64,000 bases of DNA from Phragmitibacter flavus. GTDB taxonomy: Bacteria; Verrucomicrobiota; Verrucomicrobiia; Verrucomicrobiales; Verrucomicrobiaceae. The stretch covers positions 1 through 64,000 of the forward strand of contig NZ_VAUV01000014.1 of the NCBI RefSeq assembly GCF_005780165.1. Direction: 5' to 3'. A model generated the notes under the pieces. The model searched no databases, was not told where the DNA came from, and saw nothing but the letters and a program-made list of their open reading frames with translations. The position numbers and the translations under genes are program-made. Below, in pieces: positions 8,101-41,205 of this stretch; within the stretch, counting starts at the first letter, position 1, and each line of letters begins with the position of its first letter.

Positions 8101-8979
8101 ATGGCTGAATCTCCTGTCATGGTCACTGGTCCCGAACCTGAAGCTGAGTTTGATCTCTGGCTGGAAGCGGGTCGCACGGAAAAGCATTACTGGCTGGATC
8201 TGTGGCGCTACCGCGAGCTGTTTATTATCCTTGCGTGGCGCGATGTCACCGTGCGTTACAAGCAAACCGTTGCCGGTGCTGCTTGGGCTCTGTTGCAGCC
8301 ATTCTTTTCAATGGTCATCATGACCATCATCTTCGGAAAAGTCGCGGGACTGCCCTCTCAGGGCACCGCTCCCTACGCCATCATGGTATTCGCCGCGTTG
8401 TTGCCGTGGCAGTTCTTTTCCAACGCGCTCAGTTCATCCAGCCAAAGTCTGGTGGGTAATGCGGGATTGATCTCCAAGGTGTATTTCCCGAGACTGATCA
8501 TTCCAGCGAGTTCGGTGGTGGTGGCGTGTGTCGACTTTCTTATTTCATTCCTCATCATGATCGCCATGATGATCTGGTATCAGTTTGTCCCAAGCTGGCG
8601 CATTGTATGTCTTCCAGCATTTGTATTGCTGGCCTTCCTGGCGGCGTTGGGACCGGGATTGATTGTGACAGCGCTGAACGTGAAGTTTCGCGATTTTCGG
8701 ATTGTGATCCCATTCATTGTGCAGTTTGGACTGTATGTCTCTCCCGTTGCCTACAGCAGCGCGGTCATCCGCGAGAAATTTGGTGACGTCGCCTTCCTGC
8801 TCTACAGCCTTAACCCGATGGTCGGTGTTATTGATGGATTTAGGTGGGCGATTTTGGGCGGCGAATCGAGTGTATATTTGCCAGGCTTCCTATTGTCGCT
8901 GGGGGTTGCTCTGGTGGCGCTGGTTGGTGGCATTTGGTATTTCCGCAAAACCGAACGGACTTTCGCGGATGTCATTTAA
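8101..8979 (+). CDS. wzm: ABC-2 type polysaccharide export permease (Wzm)
   Basis: A 292-residue membrane protein with six predicted spans. The N-terminal cytoplasmic part contains WRYRELFIILAWRDVTVRYKQ and then GAAWALLQP, both hallmarks of ABC-2 permeases that export O-antigens or capsules. The LNPMVGVIDGFRWAILG segment near the C-terminus is also typical. With the Wzt ATPase encoded 38 bases downstream it should form the inner-membrane channel that moves a finished lipid-linked glycan to the periplasm. It is the only permease of this type in the window although there are two Wzt genes. Confidence 0.93.
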   Translation: MAESPVMVTGPEPEAEFDLWLEAGRTEKHYWLDLWRYRELFIILAWRDVTVRYKQTVAGAAWALLQPFFSMVIMTIIFGKVAGLPSQGTAPYAIMVFAALLPWQFFSNALSSSSQSLVGNAGLISKVYFPRLIIPASSVVVACVDFLISFLIMIAMMIWYQFVPSWRIVCLPAFVLLAFLAALGPGLIVTALNVKFRDFRIVIPFIVQFGLYVSPVAYSSAVIREKFGDVAFLLYSLNPMVGVIDGFRWAILGGESSVYLPGFLLSLGVALVALVGGIWYFRKTERTFADVI

Positions 8980-9017
8980 GCCGACGGGATGTGCAGAGAG
9001 GATGATGTCGAGTTTTC

Positions 9018-10319
9018 ATGGCGAACGACGCAGTCATAAAGGTTGAGAATGTTTCCAAGAGATATCTCATCAACCGTTGTGGTGACCTAACTTCCGGAAA
9101 TGATCTGCGGCATCTGGTTCAGGCTGCGGTGATGGCCCCCTTTGGTTTTATGAGGGCGGGTAAAAAATCAGAAGTGGCAAAAGATCGGACTTTCAGAGTG
9201 GTGTGCTCAAGAGACAAGCTAAAGGAGGAGATCCACGCGCTTCACGACATTAATTTTGAGGTCAAGCGTGGAGAAATTCTGGGTATTATCGGCAGGAATG
9301 GGGCGGGGAAAAGCACACTGCTCAAGATTCTCGGCCGCATCACTGAACCCAGCACTGGGCGCATCGGGATCAAGGGTCGAATTGCAAGTTTGTTGGAAGT
9401 TGGCACCGGTTTTCATCCGGAACTGACAGGTCGTGAGAACATTTATCTGAATGGCGCGATCCTAGGCATGCGGCGTCAGGAGATCCGATCGAGATTTGAT
9501 GAGATGGTTGATTTTGCGGGTTTTGAGCAGTTTCTTGATACACCGGTTAAGAGGTATTCGTCAGGGATGTATGCTCGACTGGCCTTTGCGGTGGCTGCGC
9601 ACCTTGAGCCGGACATCATGATTGTGGATGAGGTGTTGGCGGTGGGTGACGCAGAGTTTCAGAAGAAGTGTCTTGGCAAGATGCAAGACGTGGCGGGGAA
9701 TGGCCGGACGGTGCTGTTTGTGAGTCACAACATGATGGCCATGCAGACTTTGTGCGACCGTGGGATGGTGCTGGAGAAGGGCCGGATCGAACACCAGGGT
9801 GAGGTCACAGATTGCATCGACTTCTATATGGGGAGAGATGGCTGGGGAAAGAGTCAACATTGGCTTAGGGACGACGACGGAGTCGGTGCGCTTCTTTATG
9901 TTAAATGCGCGATGTTTGAGATGAAGGATGGAGAGTCGGGCAAAGTTCTGGAGCTGACGCTTGACCTAGTGGGACGGGAGCGGTGCCAGAAGGCGTTTAT
10001 AGCTGTGGATATTCTCGATTCGACGGGGATGGCTTTGATGCAGGCGCTGCCGGAATTGGAACCGTTCATTTCTGAATCGGAAAAAGCCATCAAGCTAAAG
10101 CTTGCGATTGACCTTCCGCCACTGATTCCTGGATGGTATTCAATGACGTTGTGGGTTGGCAGTCATAATACTCAAACATTTGACAGTGTGGACAACGTGC
10201 TGCGGTTTGAGATTGTTGAATCTCCCACGGAGGGACGGACGTTTCCCCATGTCAGAGAACACGGCGCGATGGTTCCGCCGTCCAAAGTCGAGATTTTGCA
10301 GGGAAGCATTTCATGTTGA
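9018..10319 (+). CDS. wzt: ABC transporter ATPase with C-terminal glycan-binding domain (Wzt, copy 1)
   Basis: A 433-residue ATPase. Walker A is GRNGAGKST at about residue 94, the signature is RYSSGMYARLAFA, Walker B is IMIVDEVLAVGD and the H-loop is FVSHNM. Residues from about 280 to the end form a separate beta-rich domain like Wzt-C, which in Escherichia coli O8/O9a recognises the chemically capped non-reducing end of the polymer. The ATPase domain is highly similar to the second copy at 11088, while the C-terminal domains differ. The stop overlaps the next gene, an FkbM methyltransferase, by 7 bases, implying translational coupling. Confidence 0.93.
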   Translation: MANDAVIKVENVSKRYLINRCGDLTSGNDLRHLVQAAVMAPFGFMRAGKKSEVAKDRTFRVVCSRDKLKEEIHALHDINFEVKRGEILGIIGRNGAGKSTLLKILGRITEPSTGRIGIKGRIASLLEVGTGFHPELTGRENIYLNGAILGMRRQEIRSRFDEMVDFAGFEQFLDTPVKRYSSGMYARLAFAVAAHLEPDIMIVDEVLAVGDAEFQKKCLGKMQDVAGNGRTVLFVSHNMMAMQTLCDRGMVLEKGRIEHQGEVTDCIDFYMGRDGWGKSQHWLRDDDGVGALLYVKCAMFEMKDGESGKVLELTLDLVGRERCQKAFIAVDILDSTGMALMQALPELEPFISESEKAIKLKLAIDLPPLIPGWYSMTLWVGSHNTQTFDSVDNVLRFEIVESPTEGRTFPHVREHGAMVPPSKVEILQGSISC

Positions 10320-11050
10320 GATGGTTCAGCAAATGGGGGAATCCGTCGGCCAAAATGGAGGTTACCGAGGAGCATCTGGGAAACAGTGCCAACAGCACGG
10401 GAAACGTTATCACGCTGCGAGGCATTCAGTTTTCTCTGGAGGGCATGAGTCCCAAGATGCGTGCCGTGTTGATTGAGGGTGAGTATGAGTTGATGGAGGC
10501 TGATGCATGTGCGACCTGGGTAAAGGAAGGGGATCGTGTCTTGGAACTGGGCAGTGCGATTGGTTTCATCGGCCTGCATTGTCTGAAAAATTGTGGCGCG
10601 GCGTCGGTGGTATCGGTTGAAGCGAATCCACGAACGGCCGAATGCTTGAAGGAAAACTACCGGTTGAATGGTCTTGCTCCCCAAGTTCTCAAGGTTGCTG
10701 TCACCACCAAAGATGAAGAAGTGGACCTTTATGTCGGGCCAGACTTTTGGAGTGACAGTGTTTGTCTGGGTTTTGAAGAGACTGAGAATATCCGAGTTCC
10801 CGGATGCAAATTTACCACGCTATGGCAGTCTCTGGCGGCCAAGCCCAATGTGCTGGTCGTGGACATTGAGGGAGAGGAGACCGCGATTGACTGGAGTCAT
10901 CTGCCCACCGAAATCAAATTGTTGGTCGTTGAATTCCATCCCGTGCAAACCGGTTACGATTCCATGTTTGAAATGATCCGGTGTGTGCTCAATTCCGGGT
11001 TTGAAGGCGTCCTGCAGAATGGGTATGTGAACGTCTTTAGAAGGGACTAG
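10313..11050 (+). CDS. FkbM family methyltransferase
   Basis: A 245-residue SAM-dependent methyltransferase of the FkbM type. Motif I is VLELGSAIGFIGLHCL, VVSVEANP supplies the acidic ribose-binding residue, and VLVVDIEGEE near the C-terminus is the FkbM signature. It overlaps the first Wzt gene by 7 bases. Because Wzt C-domains in O8/O9a-type systems bind a methyl- or phospho-methyl-capped chain end, the coupling suggests this enzyme may add the modification its Wzt partner recognises. That is inference; it could also methylate an internal sugar. Confidence 0.85.
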   Translation: MLRWFSKWGNPSAKMEVTEEHLGNSANSTGNVITLRGIQFSLEGMSPKMRAVLIEGEYELMEADACATWVKEGDRVLELGSAIGFIGLHCLKNCGAASVVSVEANPRTAECLKENYRLNGLAPQVLKVAVTTKDEEVDLYVGPDFWSDSVCLGFEETENIRVPGCKFTTLWQSLAAKPNVLVVDIEGEETAIDWSHLPTEIKLLVVEFHPVQTGYDSMFEMIRCVLNSGFEGVLQNGYVNVFRRD

Positions 11051-11087
11051 CGAAAATTGCGTTCAGCGCAGCGATTAAATCAATTTC

Positions 11088-12404
11088 ATGTCAGACACTG
11101 TCATTAAGGTAGAAAACCTCTCCAAAAAGTATTTGATCAGCCACAAGAACGGCCGGGGATCTGGGGATGGTTTGCGTCATGCCATCCAGGAATTAATCGG
11201 CTCGCCATTTCGCCGATTGAGAGCAGGTTTTCAACAGAGCCGGGCCACCGGAACATCGTCCCATGGCCACAGCCAGTTGAGTCAAGGTCAGGAGGAGTTC
11301 TGGGCGTTGAAAGATGTTTCTTTTGAAATCAAACGCGGGGAAGTGGTGGGCATCATCGGGCGGAACGGGGCAGGAAAAAGCACCCTTCTGAAGATTCTCA
11401 GCCGCATCACCGAACCTACGAGCGGACGCATTGGGATCAAGGGCCGGGTCGCCAGTCTTTTGGAGGTGGGAACCGGGTTTCATCCCGAATTGACCGGTCG
11501 TGAGAACATCTATTTGAACGGGGCGATTCTGGGTATGAGCCGGGACGAGGTGAAACGTAAATTTGATGAGATCGTCGATTTCTCAGGGGTTGAGAAGTTT
11601 TTGGATACTCCCGTGAAGCGTTATAGCAGCGGAATGTATGTGCGGCTGGCATTTGCGGTCGCCGCTCATTTGGAGCCCGAAATTTTGATCGTGGATGAAG
11701 TGCTCGCTGTGGGAGATGCCGAGTTCCAGAAGAAGTGTTTGGGGAAGATGAAAGACGTGGCCGGGCATGGGAGGACCGTCCTTTTTGTCAGCCACAACAT
11801 GGCGGCGGTGAACGGGCTCACAACACGTGCGATCGCTCTGTCAAGTGGAACAATCCAGTCCAGTGGAAAAACAAAGGACGTTATATCCGACTACCTAGCG
11901 GCGACCAAGCAGAACGGAGTCATATTCACTCCTTCAGGAACTGGCAAACACACCACAATTCTCCAGGTCCAAAACACAAACAAGCACCCAAACAAAGCAG
12001 TTGAAGCGAGTGATCAAACTACTATCGACGTCAATGTTACGTTTACGACCGATGGATCCCCGAATCTCTCAATTGAATTATTCTTGATAGATATAACCGG
12101 GCAAAAGTTGGCCATGTTCTCGCTACAACTTTTCACCGGACAATCCCTCCCCAGCAGAGCAGGAACGTATACGCTCCAGTTCACGTCAGAACCTATGCGA
12201 TTAGCCGCTGGAGAATACACAATGGATATTGCGACTTCAATCACTAATGTTGCATGGGATCACTATCTTTCGAGTTGTATCAAGTTAGAGATCGATTCAT
12301 GTGTCATGGGTCCTACGCATTGGAATTTTAGGAATGACCTCGGATTTGGACAAATACCTTTGCTGGGAGACAATGTCCGACTAGTCGAGGGGGGACTGAC
12401 GTGA
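11088..12404 (+). CDS. wzt: ABC transporter ATPase with C-terminal glycan-binding domain (Wzt, copy 2)
   Basis: A 438-residue paralogue of the Wzt at 9018. Walker A (GRNGAGKST), the RYSSGMYVRLAFA signature, Walker B (ILIVDEVLAVGD) and the SHNM H-loop are all intact, and residues 75-245 are nearly the same as in copy 1. From about residue 245 (near base 11820) both the protein and the DNA change: the C-terminal domain cannot be aligned with copy 1 and codons become AT-rich. The second half looks like an exchanged or imported domain fused to a native ATPase module. It shares the single Wzm permease. Confidence 0.92.
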   Translation: MSDTVIKVENLSKKYLISHKNGRGSGDGLRHAIQELIGSPFRRLRAGFQQSRATGTSSHGHSQLSQGQEEFWALKDVSFEIKRGEVVGIIGRNGAGKSTLLKILSRITEPTSGRIGIKGRVASLLEVGTGFHPELTGRENIYLNGAILGMSRDEVKRKFDEIVDFSGVEKFLDTPVKRYSSGMYVRLAFAVAAHLEPEILIVDEVLAVGDAEFQKKCLGKMKDVAGHGRTVLFVSHNMAAVNGLTTRAIALSSGTIQSSGKTKDVISDYLAATKQNGVIFTPSGTGKHTTILQVQNTNKHPNKAVEASDQTTIDVNVTFTTDGSPNLSIELFLIDITGQKLAMFSLQLFTGQSLPSRAGTYTLQFTSEPMRLAAGEYTMDIATSITNVAWDHYLSSCIKLEIDSCVMGPTHWNFRNDLGFGQIPLLGDNVRLVEGGLT

Positions 12405-25802: not shown

Positions 25803-27233
25803 ATGGCCTATCGGTTTGCACTGTTTTTCCTCTTTCTTTGGTATGTTCGTCCACAGGATTGGTTTCCGGGGTTGATCGGAGTGAACATCATCCGACCGGT
25901 GATGCTGATCTGGGTGGCGTTGCTTTTGTTTGGTGACATGCGCTCGCGGACGCCGCTGAGGGGCATTCTCAAAACGCCGCATGACTGGCTTGTGCTGGCG
26001 TATTTTCTCTATGTGGTTTTTACGGCTCCGGCGGGGGTGAGCGTCTTTTCTGGTTTCTTTCCATTGGTAGTGTTTTATGGATTGACGGTCCAGTCACTGT
26101 CATCTTGGGACAAGGTGCTGGGCTACCTAAAATGGTGGAACTGGATGTTGCTGGCTCTGGCGCTGATGGGGGTGTTGAGTCTCTATGGATTGGACATCAC
26201 TGGTGGGAAGCCTATAACGGACTCCATGCAAGGCCGATTGAGTTTGGGAACTTGGATGCATAACAACCCCAATGCGCTTGGTCACTCAGTAGTGGCGGCC
26301 ATTCCATTGAGCTACGTTCTTTGGTTTTGGAGGGGGAGTTTGTTTCAACGTGCGGTGATGTTTCCAGCGTTCATGATCCTGGCTGGTATGTGTGCGTGGG
26401 AGACCCAGTCCAAGGGATCTTATGTGGTGGGGGGGATGCTGACGGTGTTGATTTTCGTTATTGGGCGCCCCAAATTTGTGCAAATAGGGGCGATCGCTAT
26501 GGCGGCGGTGCTGGGGGTTGGGGCGCTGAGCTTTTTGCCAAGAATGGAGCAGATGGGCAATTTGCGAGCTGATGAGGGGGTGTTGGGTAGGTTGATGGCT
26601 TGGGAGCAGGCAAGGCAGGCTACGAAGGATCACGCCACAGGAGTTGGTTGGAAGCAGTTTATTGCATTCATACCGTGGGTTGCGGAGGGAAATCGACCGG
26701 TCATCGTAGCAAAGGCTACGCATTCCAGTTACGTGCAGGTGGCGGCGGATTTGGGGATTTACGGATTGTTTCTCTATTTAGCGGCACAGTTGGTGGCGCT
26801 GCGCACCCTTTTGGTGCTGCGACCGCGAGACGAAGAGCAGGAGCGATGTCGACGTGCGTTGATTTTGCTGATTGCAGCCAATATGATCTCAGGCTGGATG
26901 ATCAATCGGCAATATCACACGGAATATTTTTTGATGATTGCCGTCGCTGCGGCGATACATCGGCTCACAGTAGCAGAAGAGCTGACCAAGGCCGAAGAGG
27001 CCAAAGCTGAGGCTGCCAGGCTAGAAGAGGCAAAATTCTTGGATAAGGCACCAGTCGCCCAGTTAACGCCGGTTCTTATATTTCAGGCGAGCGGGCCTGG
27101 GCTGGTCAAATCGGATTCAGTCCCTCAGATTAAGAAGTTTTGGAATCGTTTTGGGTGGTTGGACCTCATGGTCGCGGGTAGTGCAACTTGGCTTACCATC
27201 TGGATCTGGGACTACATCATGGCAAACCTATAG
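25803..27233 (+). CDS. O-antigen ligase/polymerase family membrane protein
   Basis: A 476-residue protein with about ten membrane segments in its first 390 residues. A large loop around THSSYVQVAADLGIYGLFLYL is the conserved Wzy_C/WaaL signature, and GTWMHNNPNALGHSVV is a second typical segment. It either polymerises repeat units or ligates the glycan to an acceptor in the periplasm. Unusual for the family, a charged Glu/Ala/Lys-rich coiled-coil-like stretch (about residues 392-415) and one further membrane segment (about 455-473) follow the core. The window contains no other Wzy candidate. Confidence 0.85.
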   Translation: MAYRFALFFLFLWYVRPQDWFPGLIGVNIIRPVMLIWVALLLFGDMRSRTPLRGILKTPHDWLVLAYFLYVVFTAPAGVSVFSGFFPLVVFYGLTVQSLSSWDKVLGYLKWWNWMLLALALMGVLSLYGLDITGGKPITDSMQGRLSLGTWMHNNPNALGHSVVAAIPLSYVLWFWRGSLFQRAVMFPAFMILAGMCAWETQSKGSYVVGGMLTVLIFVIGRPKFVQIGAIAMAAVLGVGALSFLPRMEQMGNLRADEGVLGRLMAWEQARQATKDHATGVGWKQFIAFIPWVAEGNRPVIVAKATHSSYVQVAADLGIYGLFLYLAAQLVALRTLLVLRPRDEEQERCRRALILLIAANMISGWMINRQYHTEYFLMIAVAAAIHRLTVAEELTKAEEAKAEAARLEEAKFLDKAPVAQLTPVLIFQASGPGLVKSDSVPQIKKFWNRFGWLDLMVAGSATWLTIWIWDYIMANL

Positions 27234-27419: not shown

Positions 27420-27719
27420 ATGAGAGATGTCCTGATGCGATTTATCGAGGCGAATGCGATCAATGATCATCCTATGATCTACTGGGGAATTGGAACAGTC
27501 TGGGCGCTCATGCTTTTTGCCACGTTCTTCAGTATCCGCAGTCAAGCCTCCAGTTTGTGGGTTCGATTTATTTGGCTGCTGTTAGTGGTGGCGCTGCCGG
27601 GAATTGGGTTGTTGTTGTATTTGTTGTGGTGCCTCACCCGGTTCGACTATTCATTTTTGAAATTTGTCGTGGGTCCTCCAAGAACAGTTTCCTCCAAGGG
27701 CAAGGGTGCAGGAGCTTGA
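27420..27719 (+). CDS. Small membrane protein, PLDc_N-like
   Basis: A 99-residue protein with two membrane segments (about 21-41 and 50-75). The second contains LVVALPGIGLLLYLLW, the proline-glycine turn characteristic of PLDc_N domains, small two-span modules found at the N-terminus of cardiolipin synthases and as free-standing proteins. No phospholipase domain follows. It is 53 bases upstream of the tyrosine autokinase gene and probably in the same transcript. Function unknown. Confidence 0.7.
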   Translation: MRDVLMRFIEANAINDHPMIYWGIGTVWALMLFATFFSIRSQASSLWVRFIWLLLVVALPGIGLLLYLLWCLTRFDYSFLKFVVGPPRTVSSKGKGAGA

Positions 27720-27772: not shown

Positions 27773-30019
27773 ATGGATACGACTAAGAAAAAATTTGATT
27801 TTGCGGCAGCGGTTGGAAATGCCCTCTCGTATGCCCAGCATGGTCGACTGATGGTGATCATGGCATGTTTGGGGGTGTTGGCAGGACTTTGTTACTTCGT
27901 CTACACGACGCCCCTCTATTCTTCCAATGCGGTCATCTATTTCAGGGTGTTCGGATCACCATTGAGCGACAAGGGGATGGGGGATTCGGCTGGAAGCCAG
28001 ACGTCAGCGCTGAAGTATTTGCCTTGGGAGCTGGCCTCCGACAGCAATGTTCTGGCTGCCGCGAAGGAGCTGGGAATTGTTGGGCCCTCGGCATCGTTTG
28101 AGGCGGTGAAGTCGAAGCAGTTGAGGGTGCGTGCGAGCACGATGAACTGGAGTCATTTGCAAATTTCTGTGATGAGTCCGGATCCGGCAGTGGTGAGAGT
28201 GTTTGCGAAGAAGTTGATTGAAGTTTACCGGGCACAAAGGGAGGAGGCTTGGGCGAAATACCGCAACGAGGCACTCATTCGTTATGCGAGGGAGGTGGAC
28301 ACGCTCGAGGGGTTGGCCGTGGACAGCTACAAGGATTTGTCCAAGCTTGAGAGGGAGAGCAGGATGACTGAGGTGAAAATCGAGCAGTCACGGCTTTTTA
28401 TGGTTCCTGCGGAGTTGATCATGACCAAAGAAGTGGTTCGTCGGATGGAGGAAGTGCGGTTAAGTCTGGATCAACGTGGAACTTTAGGAACCGCGCCGGA
28501 GAAACTGACTGCGGAGCAGATTTTCGCGGAACTGTCGATGTTGACGGCATTTGAGAAAGAGCGTGAGCTAAGGGTGGGGGATCTATTGCGTCGGCAGTCG
28601 CAACAGGGAATGGTGGACAAACCGGAAGGAGCTCCGGCGCAGCCTGTGCCTGCGTCATTTGTCGTGCAGCCGAACATGGTGGAGGGATTGCGACCCTGGC
28701 AAGATTTGGAGAAAAAGCGTCGTGTGATTGAGGAGGAGCTGATGGAGGCGAACAAACGATACTTGCCAGCACATGCAATCGTGAAAGGATTGGAAGAGGA
28801 TCTCGCCAACAACACCCGTGCTTTGGCTGCTGAGTTAGAAGTGATGCGCCGGCGCTTCGAGCTTGATTTTCAACAGCAAACCCAAAAAATTGCCACTCTT
28901 GAAAAGCGGTTGCCCGAGTATTATCAGACCAACGAAGAGGCAGGGCTGGCCGGTGAGCAGTATATGAGCGCTTCGCAGGGCCGGGCGATGTGGGGCAGGG
29001 CGCGGGACAAATTGTCGGACAAGTTGTCGATGATCTCGTTTACTCAGGATCTCGATTGGGTGGAGATGCATTTTAAGGAATTTGTGAACTTGCGGGATGT
29101 GGAACCGACTTCGCCGAACAAAATGAAGCTGTTGATGATCTCCCTGATGCTGGCTATCGGGGGGGCGATTGGCGCGCCGACTTTGGTGAATCTGATGCAC
29201 ACTGGGGTTGAGACCTTGCAGCAGTTGGAAAATGTGACTGGTCTGACTGCCGTTGGAGTGATCCCTCGAACCACCAAAGAGGTATTAGAGGACATTGCGA
29301 GGTCTCCCTCCATCGGCGCGAAATCCCCCAACCATTTGTTGGAGAGTTTCCGGCTGATTCGTAGCCACATCCTTTTGCATCCCAATTCAAAAGGCAAATC
29401 ACAGGTGATCATGGTTACCAGTGCCAGACCTTCTGAGGGGAAAACGAGTCAAGCGGCGAACCTCGCCTGGGCTTTTCAGTCCATGGGTTCACGCACGCTG
29501 TTGATTGATTGTGACTTGCGACGCGGACGTGTGCATCAGGTTTTGGATGTGGCAAATGACATTGGAATCACGCAGCTTCTTTTAAATCGGTTTCCGGTTC
29601 AGGAAGCCGTGCTCAAAACGTCCAACCCTCTCCTGGATGTGATTCCTCGGGGTCCGATCATCACAGGAACGACTGAGCTGCTTTGCCAAAAAGGATTTGT
29701 CGATCTGGTGGAGCGGTTCCGGGGTGAATACGATCAAATCGTAATCGATACCCCGCCGGTATTGGGATTGAGCGAGACGGCTGCGCTTCGTATTGTTGTT
29801 GACGGGGTGATCATGGTGGTGCGTGCTGAGAAAACTACCCGGAGGGACGTGTCGGATGCGGTGGCACTGCTGAGAAAGACCGATGCGCATTTCTTCGGCA
29901 TGGTGTTGAATGATCTCGACTTGAACAAGGCAAAGAACTACTACAACTACTACTATTACTCGGCTTCTTACTACGAAGATCTGGAGGGTGTGGGGGCTGG
30001 CGGAAAAGCCGTCGTGTAA
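27773..30019 (+). CDS. Polysaccharide co-polymerase / tyrosine autokinase (Wzc-like)
   Basis: A 748-residue BY-kinase. A Wzz-like region with membrane segments near residues 28-47 and 447-470 flanks a long periplasmic coiled coil. The cytoplasmic kinase has Walker A SARPSEGKTSQAAN (about 547-560), Walker A' LLIDCDLRRGR (about 575) and Walker B IVIDTPPVLG. The C-terminus carries a tyrosine cluster, YYNYYYYSASYYED, the site of autophosphorylation in this family. It controls chain length and assembly of a Wzy-made polymer and works with an outer-membrane export protein such as the one encoded at 33436. All catalytic motifs are intact. Confidence 0.94.
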   Translation: MDTTKKKFDFAAAVGNALSYAQHGRLMVIMACLGVLAGLCYFVYTTPLYSSNAVIYFRVFGSPLSDKGMGDSAGSQTSALKYLPWELASDSNVLAAAKELGIVGPSASFEAVKSKQLRVRASTMNWSHLQISVMSPDPAVVRVFAKKLIEVYRAQREEAWAKYRNEALIRYAREVDTLEGLAVDSYKDLSKLERESRMTEVKIEQSRLFMVPAELIMTKEVVRRMEEVRLSLDQRGTLGTAPEKLTAEQIFAELSMLTAFEKERELRVGDLLRRQSQQGMVDKPEGAPAQPVPASFVVQPNMVEGLRPWQDLEKKRRVIEEELMEANKRYLPAHAIVKGLEEDLANNTRALAAELEVMRRRFELDFQQQTQKIATLEKRLPEYYQTNEEAGLAGEQYMSASQGRAMWGRARDKLSDKLSMISFTQDLDWVEMHFKEFVNLRDVEPTSPNKMKLLMISLMLAIGGAIGAPTLVNLMHTGVETLQQLENVTGLTAVGVIPRTTKEVLEDIARSPSIGAKSPNHLLESFRLIRSHILLHPNSKGKSQVIMVTSARPSEGKTSQAANLAWAFQSMGSRTLLIDCDLRRGRVHQVLDVANDIGITQLLLNRFPVQEAVLKTSNPLLDVIPRGPIITGTTELLCQKGFVDLVERFRGEYDQIVIDTPPVLGLSETAALRIVVDGVIMVVRAEKTTRRDVSDAVALLRKTDAHFFGMVLNDLDLNKAKNYYNYYYYSASYYEDLEGVGAGGKAVV

Positions 30020-30170: not shown

Positions 30171-30350
30171 ATGAATAGCGTAGAACTTAAAACTTGTTTG
30201 GCTGCCGTTGCGGCGATGGCTGTGGGGCTTTTGCTGACCGGCTGCAGTTCTTCCCCCTACTACGGTGGTCACGGAACGCCTGTTCGAGCCAAAGCCACCT
30301 ATGTCCCGCCCGAAGTTCAAAGAACAGAGCCTTATTTGCCCCTGTTCTGA
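30171..30350 (+). CDS. Small lipoprotein (59 residues)
   Basis: A short gene starting at ATG 30171 with AGAAAGG ten bases upstream and ending TGA at 30348-30350. The product has a clear lipoprotein signal: an N-terminal charged stretch, a hydrophobic core and the lipobox LLTGC with Cys at residue 25. The mature part of about 35 residues is rich in Ser, Tyr and Pro (SSSPYYGGHG, TYVPPEV) and has no known domain. It lies between the tyrosine autokinase and the outer-membrane barrel, so a role in the export complex is plausible but unproven. Ribosome-binding site and lipobox together make it very likely real. Confidence 0.8.
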   Translation: MNSVELKTCLAAVAAMAVGLLLTGCSSSPYYGGHGTPVRAKATYVPPEVQRTEPYLPLF

Positions 30351-30649
30351 TTTCGCCTTGAGTTGTGATTGAGTATTAGCTGATCTTATCCAACTTATTA
30401 AAGTTCTTATAGGGCTGGGTGATTGATGCCTGCTCAGGTAGATCCTCTCGCAATTAATGCGCAGTTGTTAAGACCTTTTGACTTACAGTGGAAGATAGTA
30501 AATGTGGAACCCGGTATCCTGCACTGTTGAAAAGCAAAACTTTCTAGACGGGCAAAGAATTTTATTGCATCTAATCATTGATGAAGTATTAAGGCGGGGC
30601 TAATTCAAAGGCAGAGCCCGTAAGGGCACATCTTAAGAAGTTTTCCGCT
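30351..30649 (+). promoter_or_regulatory. Leader region upstream of the outer-membrane barrel gene
   Basis: A 299-base gap without a gene. A TTGACT at about 30478 followed by TAAATG 15 bases later is a weak promoter candidate. Near the 3' end, GGGGCT and AGCCC can pair around 30594-30621, and GCCCGTAAGGGC forms a second compact hairpin with a GTAA (GNRA-type) loop. A structured 5' leader of roughly 140 nt is therefore possible. It does not match any riboswitch consensus that can be recalled. Confidence 0.35.
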
Positions 30650-32422
30650 ATGAATCTGGAATTAATCAACAAAGGCCTGCAACGAGCGGTAATGATGTCG
30701 AGTGTCGCCTGGATGGTTGCCGGGGTGCAGAATGCCCGGTCTCAAGAGATTCTGCCTTCGAATGATTCTGGCGAGTTGGTTCTGGTGGCCAAAGGGGAAT
30801 CCACTCACGAGAACACGTTGGTGGGGCAGGCGGAGGGATTTTTTCCGACTCAAGACGATCTTTTGTATCTCGCTGATCGTGATTATCCCAGGGGGATGAA
30901 TTCACACCAGGGACCGGATGCCGAGTTGCAGGGAGCTACAGGGATATTTCCGTATGATCGGCAAGACAATTCGATCTATAGTCAACATAGGAATATCCTT
31001 GCGCCAGTGGATCGTTTTTTGGGATTTTTTGGTCCTCAAGATACATTGGTGATTGAATCCAGCCGTTTGCAAGGCGCATCCATAGCGTTAGATGGGGAAA
31101 TTCCCCCGCTGATCACCAGAACTTTCGAACCGGAAATGGCGCATGTGAAACTTGGCCCGCTCTACTTTGACCTTCTATGGATTGGGGCGGGTGCGATTTG
31201 GACGGATTACAGCCCTTACGGTTCCGCCCAGAAGCTCGACACGGATGATACCGCTGCCTACATCGATTTTGCCATTCGTGGCTATTTGCGGATCACTGAA
31301 ACATTCTACATTTCCGCGTTGGGAAATTTCATTTATCTGCCACTGGAGAATGAGTTGGGATTTGGAACCTCGCTCGATGGTGGTGGTGGTCCGGTGTTCA
31401 CTCTAAATATGCATTGGCAGGGACAGGCGGGATCGTGGGAATTTCTCTTGCTTGACACCTTTGCTGTGCATCCAGGTTTGAATTACGACTTGGGTCTGGA
31501 TGACGGTCAAGATGGTGTCGATTTTGCTGGGCGGTATTCGTTCGGTTTCTACAGCCCGGAGCGAAGTTCCAGATTTGATGTGCGCAGCGATGACGCCTGG
31601 ATCTCCAATCAGATATTAGGCCGCGCATCCAGTTTGGTTTTTACGGAGGACTGGAGGCTGTCTTTGCAGGCTGATCATACGGATTTTTGGAGGACCTTCA
31701 GCTTTGAAGATCACGCTTACCGAGATCACTTCGGTGCCTTGCTTGGATACGAAGGAAACGTCATTCCATTTGCGCCTGTGCTCACGTATGATGCGTCCAC
31801 CAGCGATCATGAAACCTATAGACATGAGGTGATGCTCGGATTTAGGGGGCGAATTACCGAAAATATTAACACCGCATTTGGCGGAGGATATCTTTGGGAG
31901 ACGGGGGATGAAGCAGAAAATGAAAGTTGGTTGTGGTATGTCAGTCTGAACCATACGATTTCGGAGGGGATTGCACACGGAGTTTCGTTTGGGCAGAATA
32001 TTTTTGAGGATGCCTTTTCACCCGAGACGGTCTACGCAACCTACGCCCGCTATTACATCGCCCTCAAGATCACGCACCAGTTGTCGCTGACCGGGGTTGC
32101 CCAGTGGGAGCAGTCTGAACGATTGGAGCGACGCTCGGGAGACCGGTTCAATGTTGAAGAATACGATCGATACAGCTACGGTGCCTATCTTAGCTATCGA
32201 CCTTTGGGTTACACTAACATCACCGCCTCTGCGGTTTACGAAACTAACGAAGTCGCCGATGGCGTGCAAGATACTGAGCGTTGGCTGTATCGACTGAATG
32301 TGATTCAACGGTTGACGTCTCGATTGACGTTAGAGGGATACTATCAATATGAGGACGCCGAGTTTGAAGGCGGTGGGTTTGATGAGCACCTCGTCGGGTT
32401 AAGTATTAGGCGTTATTTCTAA
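30650..32422 (+). CDS. Outer-membrane beta-barrel protein of the export locus
   Basis: A 590-residue protein with an N-terminal signal sequence (about 1-31, ending near QNARSQ). The rest is made of alternating aromatic/polar strands such as YIDFAIRGYLRITETFYISALGNF, separated by acidic turns, and it ends GLSIRRYF with a terminal Phe, typical of outer-membrane barrels. About 14-18 strands can be guessed by eye. It lies between the Wzc-like kinase and the short export lipoprotein. In Myxococcus xanthus, short export proteins work with separate barrels (Wzp proteins), so it may be the outer-membrane pore for the polymer. No specific family is claimed. Confidence 0.8.
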   Translation: MNLELINKGLQRAVMMSSVAWMVAGVQNARSQEILPSNDSGELVLVAKGESTHENTLVGQAEGFFPTQDDLLYLADRDYPRGMNSHQGPDAELQGATGIFPYDRQDNSIYSQHRNILAPVDRFLGFFGPQDTLVIESSRLQGASIALDGEIPPLITRTFEPEMAHVKLGPLYFDLLWIGAGAIWTDYSPYGSAQKLDTDDTAAYIDFAIRGYLRITETFYISALGNFIYLPLENELGFGTSLDGGGGPVFTLNMHWQGQAGSWEFLLLDTFAVHPGLNYDLGLDDGQDGVDFAGRYSFGFYSPERSSRFDVRSDDAWISNQILGRASSLVFTEDWRLSLQADHTDFWRTFSFEDHAYRDHFGALLGYEGNVIPFAPVLTYDASTSDHETYRHEVMLGFRGRITENINTAFGGGYLWETGDEAENESWLWYVSLNHTISEGIAHGVSFGQNIFEDAFSPETVYATYARYYIALKITHQLSLTGVAQWEQSERLERRSGDRFNVEEYDRYSYGAYLSYRPLGYTNITASAVYETNEVADGVQDTERWLYRLNVIQRLTSRLTLEGYYQYEDAEFEGGGFDEHLVGLSIRRYF

Positions 32423-32470
32423 CCGAATTGTTTCCTTCCCAACTTAAATCCCATAAACAAAGCAGATCTT

Positions 32471-33325
32471 ATGAAAATGCAAGCAACTCAGCCTAAACGG
32501 ACGTTATTGACGGCGACATCTCTGGTGATCTTGTCGCCATGGTTGATGGCGGGCGAGAAGGACATTGTTCCGGTGCAAGGTCCCCTAAAGGCCGCCGAAA
32601 CTTCGATGGACATTCCGTCCAGTTTTCACAAATATTACGGTCAGCGGGTGAACAGTTGGAAAGATTCCGAGCGCGCCATTGCGAAGGTGGATATGGATGC
32701 GGATATGAACATGGACGGCCATATCAGCAATACTGATCCCGCTGATGGTGGTGCATTTGAAGGGACGCCTCCTGGGCTGCAGGTCGGGGTTGGTGAAATG
32801 ACCAAAACGGTCATTCGCGTGAGGCCTTATCGTGTGGATTTTGATGGTGAGGTGGTGATCGGACTTGAAGTGGCGGGGATCAACCGGAGTGATCGTTCGG
32901 GCCAGTTTGGTTCGTTTGATGAAGAGGTTTCTTCCACGGGTCGGATTCGTGTTTGGCGCGATTCTGGCCGCACGGAGCTGCTTCTTGATAGCGCGAATCC
33001 TGACAAGCGTTATGTAGAGTTCACGACGCAATACCGTGTCTATCCATACAATCTTCCCGATGCGATTCCACGGATTGTGTATGTTGAAGGAGTTAGTTCT
33101 TCGAAAAATCATATCGGCGACCTTCGGTTGTTGCTGACCTGTTCCCATCGTAAGATTGGTTCGTCGCCACAACAATTTGTGGAGTCGAGGAAGGTCTTGT
33201 TGAAGAGCTTCCGCACTTCGTTTGATCACATTCTGTTCACGGTGCTTCCGCAGGCTGCGCAGAAGGAATTCATCAACAACAACGCCGAAGGTGTTTGGCT
33301 GAATGTTGGTCCGTCCACCAAGTGA
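32471..33325 (+). CDS. Secreted protein with EF-hand-like calcium motif
   Basis: A 284-residue protein with a signal peptide (about residues 1-27, ending LMAGEK). A DMDADMNMDGHISNTD stretch near residues 75-90 fits a calcium-binding loop (D-x-D/N-x-D-G-x-I). The remainder is predicted beta-rich, with VIRVRPY, VVIGLEVAGINR and RIRVWRDSGRTELLLDS segments. No enzyme motif is seen. It is 48 bases after the barrel gene and precedes the export lipoprotein, so it probably acts in the periplasm or at the surface in polymer export or anchoring. Confidence 0.75.
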   Translation: MKMQATQPKRTLLTATSLVILSPWLMAGEKDIVPVQGPLKAAETSMDIPSSFHKYYGQRVNSWKDSERAIAKVDMDADMNMDGHISNTDPADGGAFEGTPPGLQVGVGEMTKTVIRVRPYRVDFDGEVVIGLEVAGINRSDRSGQFGSFDEEVSSTGRIRVWRDSGRTELLLDSANPDKRYVEFTTQYRVYPYNLPDAIPRIVYVEGVSSSKNHIGDLRLLLTCSHRKIGSSPQQFVESRKVLLKSFRTSFDHILFTVLPQAAQKEFINNNAEGVWLNVGPSTK

Positions 33326-33366
33326 TTTCCTGTCTCATTTTAGCTTTCTATTGAGTTCCTTCGAGA

Positions 33367-33395
33367 GGCGGTCAGCTAATCTGCTGACCGCCTTG
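33367..33395 (+). terminator. Strong hairpin, probable terminator
   Basis: Arms GGCGGTCAGC (33367-33376) and GCTGACCGCC (33383-33392) are perfectly complementary over 10 bp with a 6-nt loop, about 40 bases after the secreted-protein stop. The downstream sequence TTGGTTGGTGTTT is T-rich but not a pure T run. It implies that the export lipoprotein gene has its own promoter or depends on read-through, and it argues against a GTG start at 33397. Confidence 0.72.
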
Positions 33396-33435
33396 GTTGG
33401 TGTTTAGCGAGGCCAAACTCAAACTTCTATTTCTC

Positions 33436-34149
33436 ATGTCAGCATTTTCTCTTCACTTTAGGCTCGTCGGACAACTGTCTAACTTCCGTAGATGGTTTAG
33501 TATCTTGGGTTCTGTGGTTTTGCTTGGCTCGTGTGCATCAAAGGACGACGGGATTTTGCCGCCACCGATGCTTCCGGGCGGACCTTCGGCGTCGACGGTC
33601 AAGGTCATGCCAACCTTCAGAGTGGGAGACGGGCTGGAGTTGATGGTTGAAGAGGATACCTCTTTTAACGGGCAGTTTAGTGTGAGGCCTGAAGGCTATG
33701 TATTGATTCCCAAGTTGGGTCGGATTCCGGTGTTGGGTCTGACGAGGGATGGCGCGGAGCGCAAGATGCGGGAGTCTTTGCAGAGGTCGCAATTGACCAA
33801 GGCCACGGTTTTTGTGGAGTTGATTTCTTCCGGGCCCGATGCTCAGGCAGCGATGGCGCAGCAGCCGCGCATCAAGGTGTTCTTGACTGGCAAGGTGGGG
33901 AGTCCAGGGCAACATCAGATCCCGGTGGTTTCGGGTCGGAATCCGGGAGTTTATGAAGCGCTACTGATGGCTGGCGGGCCTTCGAATTTCGGGAATTTAT
34001 CGAAAGTGGAGATCATGCGGCAGGATTCAGCGGGGTTGCGGCGCAAACAGGTGGTGGATGTCCGGGCCATTGAGCAGGGCAAGACGAGTGATGTGCCATT
34101 GGGAGATGGAGATATTATTAATGTTCCCCCCAAAGTATTCGGTTTCTAG
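33436..34149 (+). CDS. Polysaccharide export lipoprotein (Wza/OPX-like, short form)
   Basis: A protein of about 237 residues. An N-terminal signal with lipobox VVLLGSC is followed by a poly-export (PES) domain: FRVGDGLELMVEEDTSFNGQFSVRPEGYVLIPKLG with the typical VGD and G-x-I/V-x-L-P motifs. One SLBB domain follows (IKVFLTGKVGSPGQHQIP...VYEALLMAGGP). The chain ends soon after (GDGDIINVPPKVFGF), without the amphipathic helix that forms the outer-membrane pore in E. coli Wza. A GTG at 33397 would start only four bases after the hairpin; ATG 33436 is preferred. It should link the periplasmic co-polymerase to an outer-membrane barrel. Confidence 0.9.
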   Translation: MSAFSLHFRLVGQLSNFRRWFSILGSVVLLGSCASKDDGILPPPMLPGGPSASTVKVMPTFRVGDGLELMVEEDTSFNGQFSVRPEGYVLIPKLGRIPVLGLTRDGAERKMRESLQRSQLTKATVFVELISSGPDAQAAMAQQPRIKVFLTGKVGSPGQHQIPVVSGRNPGVYEALLMAGGPSNFGNLSKVEIMRQDSAGLRRKQVVDVRAIEQGKTSDVPLGDGDIINVPPKVFGF

Positions 34150-34274: not shown

Positions 34275-35762
34275 ATGCCACAAGCGAGAGTGTCCAAGAG
34301 GCTGGTTTCCGCCGGAGCCCATTTTTTAATGGATGCGCTGGCAGTTCACGTCGGACTCTTGTTTGGTTGTTTGGTTCGGTTTACCGATGACTTTTCGATC
34401 CAAACGCTTCTATATTTACCTGCCATAGGGCTGGCTTCCATTGTCCTTCCTTGTGTTCTGTATATCGGTGGTTTGTATACTGAGGAACCAGCGAAGATTG
34501 GCAAATGGATGAGGTTTCGGTGGCTCTTGTTTGCAATCTTGGCCGCGTTGTTGGTGATCTTTACAGTCGGTGCGGTTTCGTATGATTTGAGAATCGGGCG
34601 CGGGGTATTGTTGATGGGATTTCCGATCACTGTTGCGATCTGCTGTTTCCATCATGGAGTGGAACATGGACGTTCTAGACTTCCAGGTGAGAGTGCCGTT
34701 TGTCTGGTTGCTGACACAGATGACGAGTTGGCTGCGGAGATCCTTGCAAGACATAGTCGGCGCACCTTGATCAAAGGATTGATCTGTGTCGGCGGCTATC
34801 GTCCACAGCGTCAGTTACCGATATTGGGAACGCTCGAAGAGGGGCAACCAATTGATCTAAGCTCCAACTCGGTTATTCTGGTGAGGGACGGACACATGGT
34901 ATTGCCGCAAGTTGCGAGCTTCTTGCGTCGGTGGAGATACGAGGGGATCGATGTGCTCTCGCTCGCTGATTTGTGTGAGGAGGTATTTCAAGCGGTTCCC
35001 TTGCAAATGGTGACGGAGAGCTGGCTTTTTAGAGCATCAACACAGTCTAACCTTTTTTATGTGAAGAGGTTGAAGCGTTTGTTTGATATCGCGGCATCGT
35101 TGGCTTTCATGGTCATGCTGTCGCCGTTTCTTTTCGTTGGAATGTTGCTGGTGAAGACCCAATCGAAGGGACCGGTGTTTTTTCGTCAAGAACGGTTGGG
35201 AAGGCTTGGTCGAAAATTTGAGGTGGTGAAATTGAGAACCATGCACGTCGATGCTGAAAAAGATGGACCTAAATGGTCGGTGGCCAACGACAAAAGAGTG
35301 TTTCCGGCAGGTAAGTGGTTGAGGAAGTTCCGAGTGGACGAGATTCCGCAGTTACTGAATGTATTACGCGGTGAGATGTCCTTTGTGGGACCAAGGCCGG
35401 AACGAGGGGTGTTTGTAAGCGAGTTGGAGCAAAAAATCCCTCACTACCGGGAGAGGTTGTTCATTCAGCCGGGGCTGACAGGGTGGGCCCAAGTTCGCTA
35501 TCCTTACGGTTCATGTGCGGGTGATGCCTGGAGGAAGCTAGAATTTGATTTGTATTACATGAAGCACATGAGCCTCCTCCTAGATTTTTTCGTGTTGCTG
35601 GAGACTGTGCGCACCGTTTTAGTTGGGGGAGTGAAGTCGATGGGGGAACATGCGGTGCATGCAGATAGAGAGTGGAGCCTGTTAAGTCCTGGGTTGTTGG
35701 CGGAAGTGGAAGCAGGGGGGATTTCTGACCCTCTGCCGGGAACGACGGCGGTGAATGCGTGA
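34275..35762 (+). CDS. Initiating phosphoglycosyltransferase (polyprenyl glycosylphosphotransferase)
   Basis: A 495-residue enzyme. The N-terminal part has four or five membrane segments and a CoA-binding-like domain. From about residue 262 comes the bacterial sugar transferase domain: KRLFDIAASLAFMVMLSP membrane re-entrant helix, GPVFFRQERLGRLGRKFEVVKLRTM, then KFRVDEIPQLLNVLRGEMSFVGPRPE and the GLTGWAQVRY segment. These are the catalytic D/E and the PRPE motif. It transfers a sugar-1-phosphate onto undecaprenyl phosphate and starts each repeat unit. Its stop overlaps the possible GTG start of the next frame. Confidence 0.93.
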   Translation: MPQARVSKRLVSAGAHFLMDALAVHVGLLFGCLVRFTDDFSIQTLLYLPAIGLASIVLPCVLYIGGLYTEEPAKIGKWMRFRWLLFAILAALLVIFTVGAVSYDLRIGRGVLLMGFPITVAICCFHHGVEHGRSRLPGESAVCLVADTDDELAAEILARHSRRTLIKGLICVGGYRPQRQLPILGTLEEGQPIDLSSNSVILVRDGHMVLPQVASFLRRWRYEGIDVLSLADLCEEVFQAVPLQMVTESWLFRASTQSNLFYVKRLKRLFDIAASLAFMVMLSPFLFVGMLLVKTQSKGPVFFRQERLGRLGRKFEVVKLRTMHVDAEKDGPKWSVANDKRVFPAGKWLRKFRVDEIPQLLNVLRGEMSFVGPRPERGVFVSELEQKIPHYRERLFIQPGLTGWAQVRYPYGSCAGDAWRKLEFDLYYMKHMSLLLDFFVLLETVRTVLVGGVKSMGEHAVHADREWSLLSPGLLAEVEAGGISDPLPGTTAVNA

Positions 35763-40034: not shown

Positions 40035-40062
40035 ATTTCTGTTGGGTAGCAGGTTTGGATTT

Positions 40063-41205
40063 ATGAAGGAGGTGTCAAAATCTTGGTCAACTCGTGTCTG
40101 GGTGGGGCTGGGTGAGGCGCTGCTGGATGAGAGCAAACGGTTGTTGTTGTTAGCGCGAATCGGGAGGTGGTTGCGTTATGCGTTGAGGGGTTTGGTGGGG
40201 GGGTATGTGTTGTTTTTGGTGGGGTTGTGGATGGGATTTCGCTGGTTGGGCGAGGGGAATTTGACTATGGCCTTCTTGTTGTATGTGCCATGGCTGACCT
40301 GGGCTTTGCCATTGGTGCCATTGCTGGCTCTGGCCTTGTTGATGGATTGGAAGTCTTTGGTGTTTGGCGGGCTGGCGGGGGCGGTGGTGATGTCGGGTCT
40401 TGCGGGGTGGTCATGGCATAGGGTTGTGGAGGTCGGGAAGGATCGGGGGAGATCATTGACGGTGTTTAGTTTTAACCGAGGCCAGAGTCAGGGGGCTTCG
40501 CAGCGGCCGTTTATTGCGCAGGTGAAGCCGGATATTTTGGTGTTTCAGGAAGCACGCGGGAGGGCTTCGCAGTTTTTGCAGGCGGAGGGTTATGAGGCAT
40601 TCAAGTTCGGCGATAGTGTGGGGGAATATACGTTGGTTTCGAAATTCCCGGTTTTATCTACGTCGCTGGTGGTTCACGAGGGGCATGCGGTGGCGGGAAG
40701 GTTTGTAATTGACTGGGACGGGCGGGAGGTGGCGGTTTATTCGGTGCATTTGCGCACGCCGCGTGATGCGTTGCTGGCGATGCGGAGAGGCGCTTTTTTG
40801 TGGGGCGTTTTGGGGGTGCCGGGGACGAAGGGGGGGGAGAAACGTCGCGCTTATGAGGAGTTTTGGGATCGGCAGGTGGAGTCGGCTGAGGTGGTGGTCA
40901 AGGCATGCCGTGAGGAGAAGCTGCCTATGGTGGTGGCGGGGGATTTCAATGCGCCTGCACCAGGTTATATTCATCAGTTGCTGACGGAGGAGATGATTGA
41001 CACCCATGAGGTCGCGGGTTGGGGGGGGGGATATACGTTTCCAGGTAGGACGGGGAATCCTCTGGCTTTGCGTCGGCCATGGCTGCGGATTGACAAAATT
41101 CTGTGCAGTGAGCATTGGCGGCCGCAGTGGAACATGGTGGAGCCGGAGCAGCCGAGTCAGCATCGGGCGTTGGCGGCTCAGTTGACGTGGGTGGACGAGG
41201 GGTGA
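40063..41205 (+). CDS. Membrane-anchored endonuclease/exonuclease/phosphatase (EEP) family protein
   Basis: A protein of about 380 residues. Three membrane segments (about 35-55, 66-90 and 95-115) precede an EEP domain with IALV-type core: DILVFQEARG (metal-binding Glu), AVYSVHLRTPRD (His), VVAGDFNAPAPG (D-x-N), LRIDKILC and SQHRALAA (catalytic His). All catalytic residues are present. Such enzymes cleave phosphodiesters of nucleic acids, lipids or sugars. A periplasmic or outer-face role in the polysaccharide operon, for example on a lipid-phosphate carrier, is possible. Confidence 0.83.
   Translation: MKEVSKSWSTRVWVGLGEALLDESKRLLLLARIGRWLRYALRGLVGGYVLFLVGLWMGFRWLGEGNLTMAFLLYVPWLTWALPLVPLLALALLMDWKSLVFGGLAGAVVMSGLAGWSWHRVVEVGKDRGRSLTVFSFNRGQSQGASQRPFIAQVKPDILVFQEARGRASQFLQAEGYEAFKFGDSVGEYTLVSKFPVLSTSLVVHEGHAVAGRFVIDWDGREVAVYSVHLRTPRDALLAMRRGAFLWGVLGVPGTKGGEKRRAYEEFWDRQVESAEVVVKACREEKLPMVVAGDFNAPAPGYIHQLLTEEMIDTHEVAGWGGGYTFPGRTGNPLALRRPWLRIDKILCSEHWRPQWNMVEPEQPSQHRALAAQLTWVDEG

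Follow-up and report, generated by a model that had tools for sequence, protein, structure and literature searches.

In the window, a stretch of 64,000 nucleotides of Phragmitibacter flavus, the genes of an outer-membrane beta-barrel, of a secreted 284-residue protein (hereafter P284) and of a short OPX lipoprotein constitute the three-gene core of an export block. The conservation of this core was analyzed across the 48 Verrucomicrobiales genomes that match P284 strongly. Wherever the contig permits the check, the barrel gene lies directly upstream of P284 (47 genomes out of 47) and the OPX gene directly downstream (46 out of 46). This survey bears out the conserved gene block anticipated in a preliminary description of the locus. 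We propose, with a probability of about 0.55, that the block encodes a composite translocon for polysaccharide export, whose third subunit, the calcium-loop protein P284, associates with the barrel. The products of the block would then belong to a shared apparatus.

Gene content of the block

An open reading frame check of the window recovered all four frames of the preliminary description, i.e. those of a small lipoprotein, the barrel, P284 and the OPX protein, at the positions given in Table 1.

Table 1. Coordinates of the export block and neighbouring features in the window
Feature	Position	Strand	Basis
Wzy_C family polymerase/ligase, 476 aa	25803-27233	+	PF04932, 5.3e-14
PLDc_N two-helix small protein, 99 aa	27420-27719	+	PLDc_N, 5.3e-5, barely above cut-off
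Polysaccharide co-polymerase with tyrosine autokinase domain, 748 aa	27773-30019	+	TIGR01007, 6.6e-45
59-aa lipoprotein	30171-30350	+	lipobox LTGC
Outer-membrane beta-barrel, 590 aa, presumed export pore	30650-32422	+	structure model, gene position
P284, secreted 284-aa protein, DxDxDxNxDG loop and Ig-like beta-sandwich	32471-33325	+	model, profiles
12-pair hairpin, terminator- or attenuator-like, between P284 and OPX	33365-33394	+	stem scan
Short OPX lipoprotein, 237 aa from ATG 33436	33436-34149	+	Poly_export and one SLBB
Polyprenyl glycosylphosphotransferase (PGT), 495 aa	34275-35762	+	TIGR03025, 8.5e-95, above cut-off
Membrane EEP (endo/exonuclease/phosphatase) protein, 387 aa	40042-41205	+	PF03372, 2.6e-14

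Polysaccharide synthesis genes lie near the OPX/barrel pair: Wzy_C, PGT, glycosyltransferases and the co-polymerase, whose hydrophobic segments are residues 26-44 and 454-472. A search for flippases with profile PF13440 gave two matches in the genome, both on other contigs and hence none in the cluster. The small PLDc_N membrane protein, overlooked in the preliminary description, recurs in the block in 23 of 27 named loci. Signals of transcription are near chance level: the promoter scan gave 4 sites for 4.0 expected, and the whole terminator scan 6 sites for a chance mean of 4.7. Stems of at least 9 pairs occur within 110 bases 3' of P284 in 9 of 26 named loci, without sequence conservation; some contain many G-T pairs or extend into the OPX gene.

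The OPX lipoprotein and the barrel

The OPX protein matches Poly_export above the Pfam cut-off (9.7e-10). Its SLBB_2 match (1.5e-5, residues 160-243 of 250 when numbered from the TTG at 33397) is slightly under the cut-off, with 25.4 of 27 bits. No Wza_C was present among the Pfam matches listed, and the protein ends seven residues past the SLBB match (...INVPPKVFGF). Similarly short ends were read by eye in 43 distinct OPX tails, including that of the window and, in L084, that of a second OPX gene. Judged from its sequence, the OPX protein is thus of the short type without C-terminal outer-membrane helix, as initially described: it carries PES and one SLBB domain, and no amphipathic helix was found in it. 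A Wza-type pore is not supported, given the absence of Wza_C among the listed matches and the short tails. With 237 residues, the protein also falls within the size range of composite-translocon OPX proteins (PES and SLBB, at most 280 residues).

The separate 590-residue barrel reported upstream of the OPX gene was likewise recovered in the structure model, as about 20 long strands over residues 171-589, a strand count that is uncertain at a mean pLDDT of 63.8. In this model a barrel of at least 16 strands is therefore found within five genes of OPX, namely two genes upstream. The barrel domain is preceded by a conserved N-terminal extension (about residues 61-165); nearly all of residues 1-164 are modelled with pLDDT below 50. 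The PDB matches listed for the barrel are generic porins, TonB receptors and mitochondrial pores, informative on the fold class only; none of them stands out as a polysaccharide exporter. The same genome contains three more sets of OPX, barrel and co-polymerase genes, all without P284, which indicates that a composite translocon can do without this protein.

Sequence and predicted fold of P284

P284 of the window matches no Pfam or NCBIfam family, and searching 26 relatives against Pfam gave chance matches only (best 0.013). Its acidic loop (D74, D76, D78, D82 and G83) is kept in 45 of 45 strong sequences, that of the window included. The preliminary description had called the protein EF-hand-like. 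This holds in part. The conserved loop stands; in the model, whose core has a pLDDT of about 90, it follows a strand (71-76) and no helix occurs between residues 27 and 148, although residues 81-86, with a pLDDT below 50, are uncertain. Pfam gave no EF-hand match, and the loop is probably not a classical EF-hand.

The nearest known fold is probably the calcium-binding, Ig-like PAD_M domain of peptidylarginine deiminases (PADs), of which P284 would be a remote relative. The link is called remote because it rests on an intermediate, the bacterial PAD_M-domain protein L153, and on fold similarity. With VIA, the P284 model reached at best Z 8.4 (rmsd 3.7, 134 residues aligned); the best 46 of 50 matches comprise 42 entries titled PAD or PADI and four cytoplasmic-lattice chains. 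The P284 profile matched L153 with Prob 93, and PADs plus L153 with Prob 54, versus at most 0.4 for shuffled controls. L153 is rich in Asp and Asn, a composition that could inflate a profile score. With two human PADs, hhalign gave no significant direct match (Prob 6.7). An hmmsearch of the PDB yielded only a chance match to a dockerin (E 1), and Foldseek alone nothing convincing (best E 6e-4, TM 0.2). PF08527 is absent from the matches of 27 P284 members at E <= 1; in 68 genomes it never exceeds its cut-off, and its weak matches never fall at the P284 place. The acidic loop and the VEG motif are common to P284 and PAD_M, and their folds are predicted to be similar. It differs from PADs in being a stand-alone secreted bacterial protein, whose 284 residues are too few for a catalytic domain.

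Divergence of the core proteins

Median pairwise identity is 0.49 for P284, 0.38 for OPX and 0.31 for the barrel. Over 20 loci, the partial rank correlation between P284 and barrel divergence is 0.67 given the co-polymerase (none of 2000 permutations was as high) and 0.64 given OPX, versus 0.06 between P284 and OPX given the barrel. In these sequence comparisons the divergence of P284 follows the barrel, not OPX. Joint travel of two genes can be an alternative source of such co-divergence.

These values bear on what P284 does. It might be exported or displayed at the surface as a polymer binder, i.e. a calcium-bridged tether or matrix protein, leaving export to the OPX/barrel pair alone. We consider this rather unlikely: the median identity of P284 and its co-divergence with the barrel suit a protein partner better, and no result places P284 outside the cell, even though its domain has relatives in large, secreted-looking bacterial proteins (L153, L143), the three other OPX/barrel sets of the genome do without it, and a lipobox-like match was found within the first 90 residues of only 4 of 45 strong members. 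Alternatively, P284 could serve the barrel as an assembly factor or chaperone without being part of the working pore. The correlations agree with such a role, since P284 co-diverges with the barrel and retains little residual link to OPX or the co-polymerase; the hairpin after P284, seen in the window and in some relatives, might also conceivably separate expression of barrel and P284 from that of OPX. We nevertheless hold this reading to be quite improbable, because P284 adjoins OPX as well in all evaluable strong cases; no known barrel chaperone was seen among the PDB matches listed, although one may lie beyond them.

Distribution of the core among genomes

P284 was identified in 62 of 288 Verrucomicrobiales genomes. 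In a sample of the phylum it was found in 7 of 387, of which six are Verrucomicrobiales; in the seventh, the match is weak and falls within a large protein that belongs to another family. P284 is therefore nearly confined to one order. Occurrence of P284 and barrel in 68 genomes is distributed as follows: both in 35 cases, P284 only in 7, the barrel only in 1 and neither in 25 (p 2.8e-11, a statistic that ignores the relatedness of the genomes). Exceptions to the linkage concern weak homologues of P284. G028 and G058 carry a barrel-OPX-co-polymerase set without adjacent P284 and a weak homologue on another contig; G029, G044, G018 and G057 have a weak homologue and no barrel in the fetched stretch, one of these contigs spanning only 4 kb. 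Only 32 of the 48 strong-P284 genomes have a co-polymerase gene in the fetched stretch, and in genomes of several families the other cluster genes rearrange around an intact barrel-P284-OPX core. Near confinement to one order would suit an already known composite translocon in which P284 is an unrelated envelope gene held in place by gene-order inertia, a very improbable reading given that inertia does not predict an unbroken core amid rearranging neighbours.

The 59-residue lipoprotein

A plain search with the small lipoprotein gave weak matches, in 16 of the 68 genomes when E is allowed to reach 0.1, the best non-self match (0.002) lying in a frame with stops. The weak matches of G013 and G038 are true members by later profile and motif evidence. 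The profile matched 40 of 68 genomes at E <= 0.01; 23 of these, at E 3.3e-9 or better, were counted as members, and the remaining matches, from E 5e-4 upward, were taken as chance. Among the 23, several served as seeds of the profile and so match by construction. The pattern C..YFGG.G....[YHF]VP.E[VI].R, drawn up once the first members were known, matches in real loci versus none of 13887 small ORFs of reversed loci. By these sequence criteria the lipoprotein is a real, conserved micro-family.

Its commonest neighbour is the membrane EEP phosphoesterase gene, located within about 2.5 kb in 17 of the 23 genomes. The lipoprotein gene is inside the translocon block in 10 genomes and away from it in 13, of which 12 have the EEP gene within about 2.5 kb. 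The four-part apparatus first suggested, which counted the lipoprotein in, was consequently dropped for the three-gene core.

Proposed mechanism

The polymer would be synthesized by PGT, glycosyltransferases and a Wzy-type enzyme, and passed by the co-polymerase to the short OPX lipoprotein, assembled as a ring. This ring would be unable to span the outer membrane, and the polymer would exit through the separate barrel. OPX and barrel are paired here because of described systems and of the anatomy of the window. P284, presumably secreted through its Sec-type signal, would bind the barrel from the periplasm, perhaps at the conserved N-terminal extension; this contact would involve its Ig-like domain loaded with calcium, a putative ligand, and would stabilise, dock or gate the pore. 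P284 is considered a partner of the barrel on account of linkage and co-divergence. A stricter version, in which calcium-loaded, PAD-middle-domain-like P284 is the obligatory docking or gating subunit of a three-component Verrucomicrobiales translocon, is advanced only tentatively, as somewhat less likely than not.

Comparison with known systems

The best NCBIfam matches of OPX and barrel are XrtA/PEP-CTERM cluster proteins: TIGR03027 (export) with 43.6 bits for a cut-off of 180, and TIGR03016 (outer membrane) with 25.7 bits for a cut-off of 90.85, the latter matching weakly in 15 of 26 barrels. Membership in an XrtA/exosortase system was rejected: both scores are far below the cut-offs, and the three exosortase matches of the genome are on other contigs.

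In the part of PMC9601211 compared here, EpsY/EpsX of Myxococcus xanthus is a two-component composite D1D2OPX/beta-barrel translocon with an 18-stranded barrel, such translocons are reported from 10 phyla, and the barrel search relied on profiles derived from EpsX/ExoB/MXAN_1916 and VpsM. Barrels of the present type may have escaped these profiles; the string Verrucomicrobi- is absent from the main text of that paper, and its tree legend names the PVC superphylum. As described there, EpsY/EpsX shares with the window set a short OPX without pore helix, a coupled barrel gene and a polysaccharide cluster; the window set differs by a third gene between barrel and OPX and by the conserved N-terminal extension of its barrel. 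With its uncertain strand count and weak TIGR03016 match, the window barrel is at most a candidate member of the 18-stranded EpsX/Wzp family. In the sections considered of PMC9603273, whose main text also lacks the string Verrucomicrobi-, Class 3 OPX proteins (Poly_export-SLBB) are paired with the Wzp porin; the window OPX is similar in architecture and in having a porin partner, and no P284 counterpart was found in these sections.

As far as these portions of the two papers go, OPX and barrel belong to an already described class and are hence not the distinct export system initially suggested; the new element is P284, encoded between them. No paper on this gene block appeared among the literature listings consulted. 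If the proposal is correct, P284 is an accessory subunit absent from the same portions of the composite OPX/barrel papers. How a polymer travels between a short OPX and its separate barrel is presented as open in PMC9603273 (Figure 8 legend, Figure 10 models), and a third protein, encoded between the two and co-diverging with the barrel, would provide a handle on this step.

Organization of the cluster and of the export proteins

The gene set of the window is a polysaccharide cluster (Table). The four reading frames put forward in the preliminary description, i.e. a lipoprotein, a 590-aa outer-membrane beta-barrel, a secreted 284-aa protein (P284) and a polysaccharide export lipoprotein (OPX), are all present. 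The genome containing the window consists of 44 contigs (5.9 Mb).

Table. Genes of the polysaccharide cluster
Feature	Coordinates	Remark
Wzy_C	25803-27233	
PLDc_N protein	27420-27719	99 aa, two-helix
Co-polymerase with tyrosine kinase	27773-30019	
Lipoprotein	30171-30350	
Barrel	30650-32422	
P284	32471-33325	
OPX	33436-34149	
Polyprenyl glycosylphosphotransferase (PGT)	34275-35762	
Glycosyltransferases		
Endo/exonuclease/phosphatase superfamily (EEP) protein	40042-41205	membrane

The OPX protein has an LGSC lipobox, a Poly_export domain above the Pfam cut-off and one SLBB_2 domain at 25.4 bits (cut-off 27); Wza_C was not among the Pfam matches listed for it. The chain stops seven residues past the SLBB match, at VPPKVFGF. 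This short tail is common to related OPX proteins: VPEKVFGF occurs exactly in 19 of 43 distinct tails and the others, including that of the window, are similar. The OPX is of the short type, unable to span the outer membrane alone.

The AlphaFold model of the barrel (26 sequences, mean pLDDT 63.8) contains about 20 long strands within residues 171-589. Residues 1-164 are poorly modelled, and residues 61-165 are conserved about like the barrel proper (mean top-residue frequency 0.48 and 0.45, compared to 0.43 to 0.50). Fold searches with the model returned generic outer-membrane barrels, and the sole recurrent named family was TIGR03016, a weak match in 15 of the 26 members.

Other features of the window were also observed. 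A hairpin of 12 pairs lies between P284 and OPX (33365-33394); stems of at least 9 pairs follow P284 in 9 of 26 named loci, their sequence not being conserved. The region 8101-12404 encodes two ABC ATPases, whose Wzt_C matches fall below cut-off, and an ABC-2 permease; together they probably form a second export route of ABC type. A secreted protein on the minus strand (58221-58934), without match in a Pfam search, ends in a hydrophobic stretch followed by RRRR, PEP-CTERM-like by eye; the three exosortase matches of the genome lie elsewhere.

Distribution and linkage of P284

A pattern scan of named genomes, combined with P284 alignment, confirmed 27 loci among 117 candidate stretches, all with titles in Verrucomicrobi-, Prosthecobacter or Verrucomicrobium. 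In the family sample, P284 was matched in 42 of 68 genomes and the barrel in 36: 35 genomes have both, 7 have P284 without the barrel, 1 has the barrel without P284 and 25 have neither. For three of the seven P284-only genomes (G004, G005, G041) the barrel was found once a profile was used. In the order sample, 62 of 288 genomes have a P284 match, with a score of at least 178 bits in 48. In the phylum sample 7 of 387 genomes have one, that of G232 being weak and located within a large protein.

Among the 48 strong genomes, the barrel is directly upstream of P284 in 47/47 evaluable cases and the OPX directly downstream in 46/46, contig ends removing G534 from the first count and G035 and G475 from the second. 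In G035 the contig end cuts the P284 frame, and a barrel is seen beside the match. A co-polymerase gene is present in the fetched stretch, of varying length, in 32 of the 48. The 14 weaker genomes are distributed as follows: six (G059, G022, G040, G033, G039, G041) retain the P284 homologue within the locus, on the upstream side of the barrel; in G002 it lies about 3 kb from the OPX on the opposite strand; in G028 and G058 a barrel-OPX-co-polymerase set has no P284 homologue beside it; in four (G029, with a contig of 4 kb, G044, G018, G057) the homologue stands by itself in the stretch retrieved; G056 is a fragment. G002, G028, G058 and the genomes with a lone homologue count against an absolute barrel-P284-OPX rule.

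As an internal control, PF02563 has five matches in the window's genome, four above cut-off, and P284 a single copy. The three other loci with a match above cut-off (L160, L161 and L162, on contigs C25, C1 and C2) each contain adjoining barrel-like, OPX and co-polymerase genes, with different barrel sequences. The barrel-like assignment is firm for L161 (BBP2_2, 7.7e-14), weak for L162 (Pfam below cut-off; 30.6 bits with the profile of the window's barrel), and made for L160 by position and one match below cut-off.

Neighbouring genes

Of the 27 named loci, 23 encode the PLDc_N protein, in most cases immediately upstream of the barrel gene or the co-polymerase gene. A motif pattern for the lipoprotein, drawn only after the first members had been seen, gave 20 rows among 12444 small ORFs of 67 related loci (some rows being the same contig fetched twice) and 0 among 13887 small ORFs of the reversed control. 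The lipoprotein profile matched strongly in 23 of 68 genomes; co-occurrence with strong P284 (both 20, P284 only 7, lipoprotein only 3, neither 38) has p 1.2e-8, uncorrected for relatedness and seed overlap. In 13 genomes the lipoprotein is found outside the block, with an EEP gene within about 2.5 kb in 12; in the remaining one (locus L221) the contig ends about where locus L220 has its EEP gene. A membrane phosphoesterase of the EEP superfamily is thus a recurring member of these clusters (40042-41205; loci L213-L225) and more often a neighbour of the YFGG/VPxEVxR lipoprotein than any other gene. The phosphoesterase and the tiny lipoprotein may form their own unit.

Co-divergence of P284 and the barrel

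When sequences from the window and the named loci are compared in pairs, the median identity is 0.49 for P284 (n=27), 0.45 for PGT (n=14), 0.38 for co-polymerase (n=21) and OPX (n=27), 0.31 for the barrel (n=26) and 0.30 for PLDc_N (n=24). In the 20 loci having P284, barrel, OPX, co-polymerase and PLDc_N together, the rank correlation of identity with P284 is 0.74 for the barrel, 0.50 for OPX and 0.44 for co-polymerase. The P284-barrel value given co-polymerase is 0.67, reached by 0 of 2000 permutations; given the barrel, those of OPX and co-polymerase fall to 0.06 and 0.09. Co-divergence of the sequences thus points to the barrel as the partner of P284, short of proof of contact.

Predicted fold of P284

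The window's P284 has no match in Pfam or NCBIfam, and its 26 named relatives have scattered Pfam matches only (best E 0.013). A putative Sec-type signal peptide was recognised by inspection of the sequence. The model, built from 27 sequences with a mean pLDDT of 73.7 and about 90 in the core, shows a beta-sandwich. Among the first 46 of 50 VIA-align rows, 42 chains are titled peptidylarginine deiminase (PAD) and four are oocyte-lattice chains, two of whose entries are given as PADI6. The best match (Z 8.4, rmsd 3.7, 134 aligned) covers the N-terminal and middle part of PADs, and a Z of about 8.4 can reflect a common arrangement. Foldseek gave weak matches, and direct sequence comparison of P284 with two PADs fails (Prob 6.7).

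L153, a protein from another Verrucomicrobiota genome, matches the PAD middle domain (PAD_M) at 34.9 bits (cut-off 24.8), the sole such case in 387 genomes. A wider profile (P284, weak relatives and the protein L143) matches L153 over 121 columns with Prob 93.3 and a single-target E of 2.6e-7, and PADs plus L153 over 60 columns with Prob 54; L153 against PADs gives Prob 74, and ten column-shuffled controls at most 0.4. L153 and L143 are large Verrucomicrobiota proteins bearing PAD_M-like or P284-like domains. This suggests that bacterial relatives of the animal PAD middle domain exist in large, probably secreted proteins.

The PAD middle domain has a calcium role. In P284, residues D74, D76, D78, D82 and G83 of the acidic loop are invariant in 45/45 distinct strong sequences, including the window's, and N80 is kept in 41; among 13 weak sequences D78 is kept in 13, D82 in 11 and D74 in 1. 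The loop is a putative calcium-binding site.

Comparison with known translocons

The gene set would work like a composite translocon, in which a short OPX is combined with a separate barrel (EpsY/EpsX; Class 3 OPX/Wzp). The testable features of this class were found here; for barrel family and strand number, the indications are the weak TIGR03016 matches and the approximately 20 strands of the model. P284 could be an adaptor, gate, chaperone or surface tether; co-divergence favours a role as barrel partner. What is new compared to the known systems is this third gene, kept between barrel and OPX.
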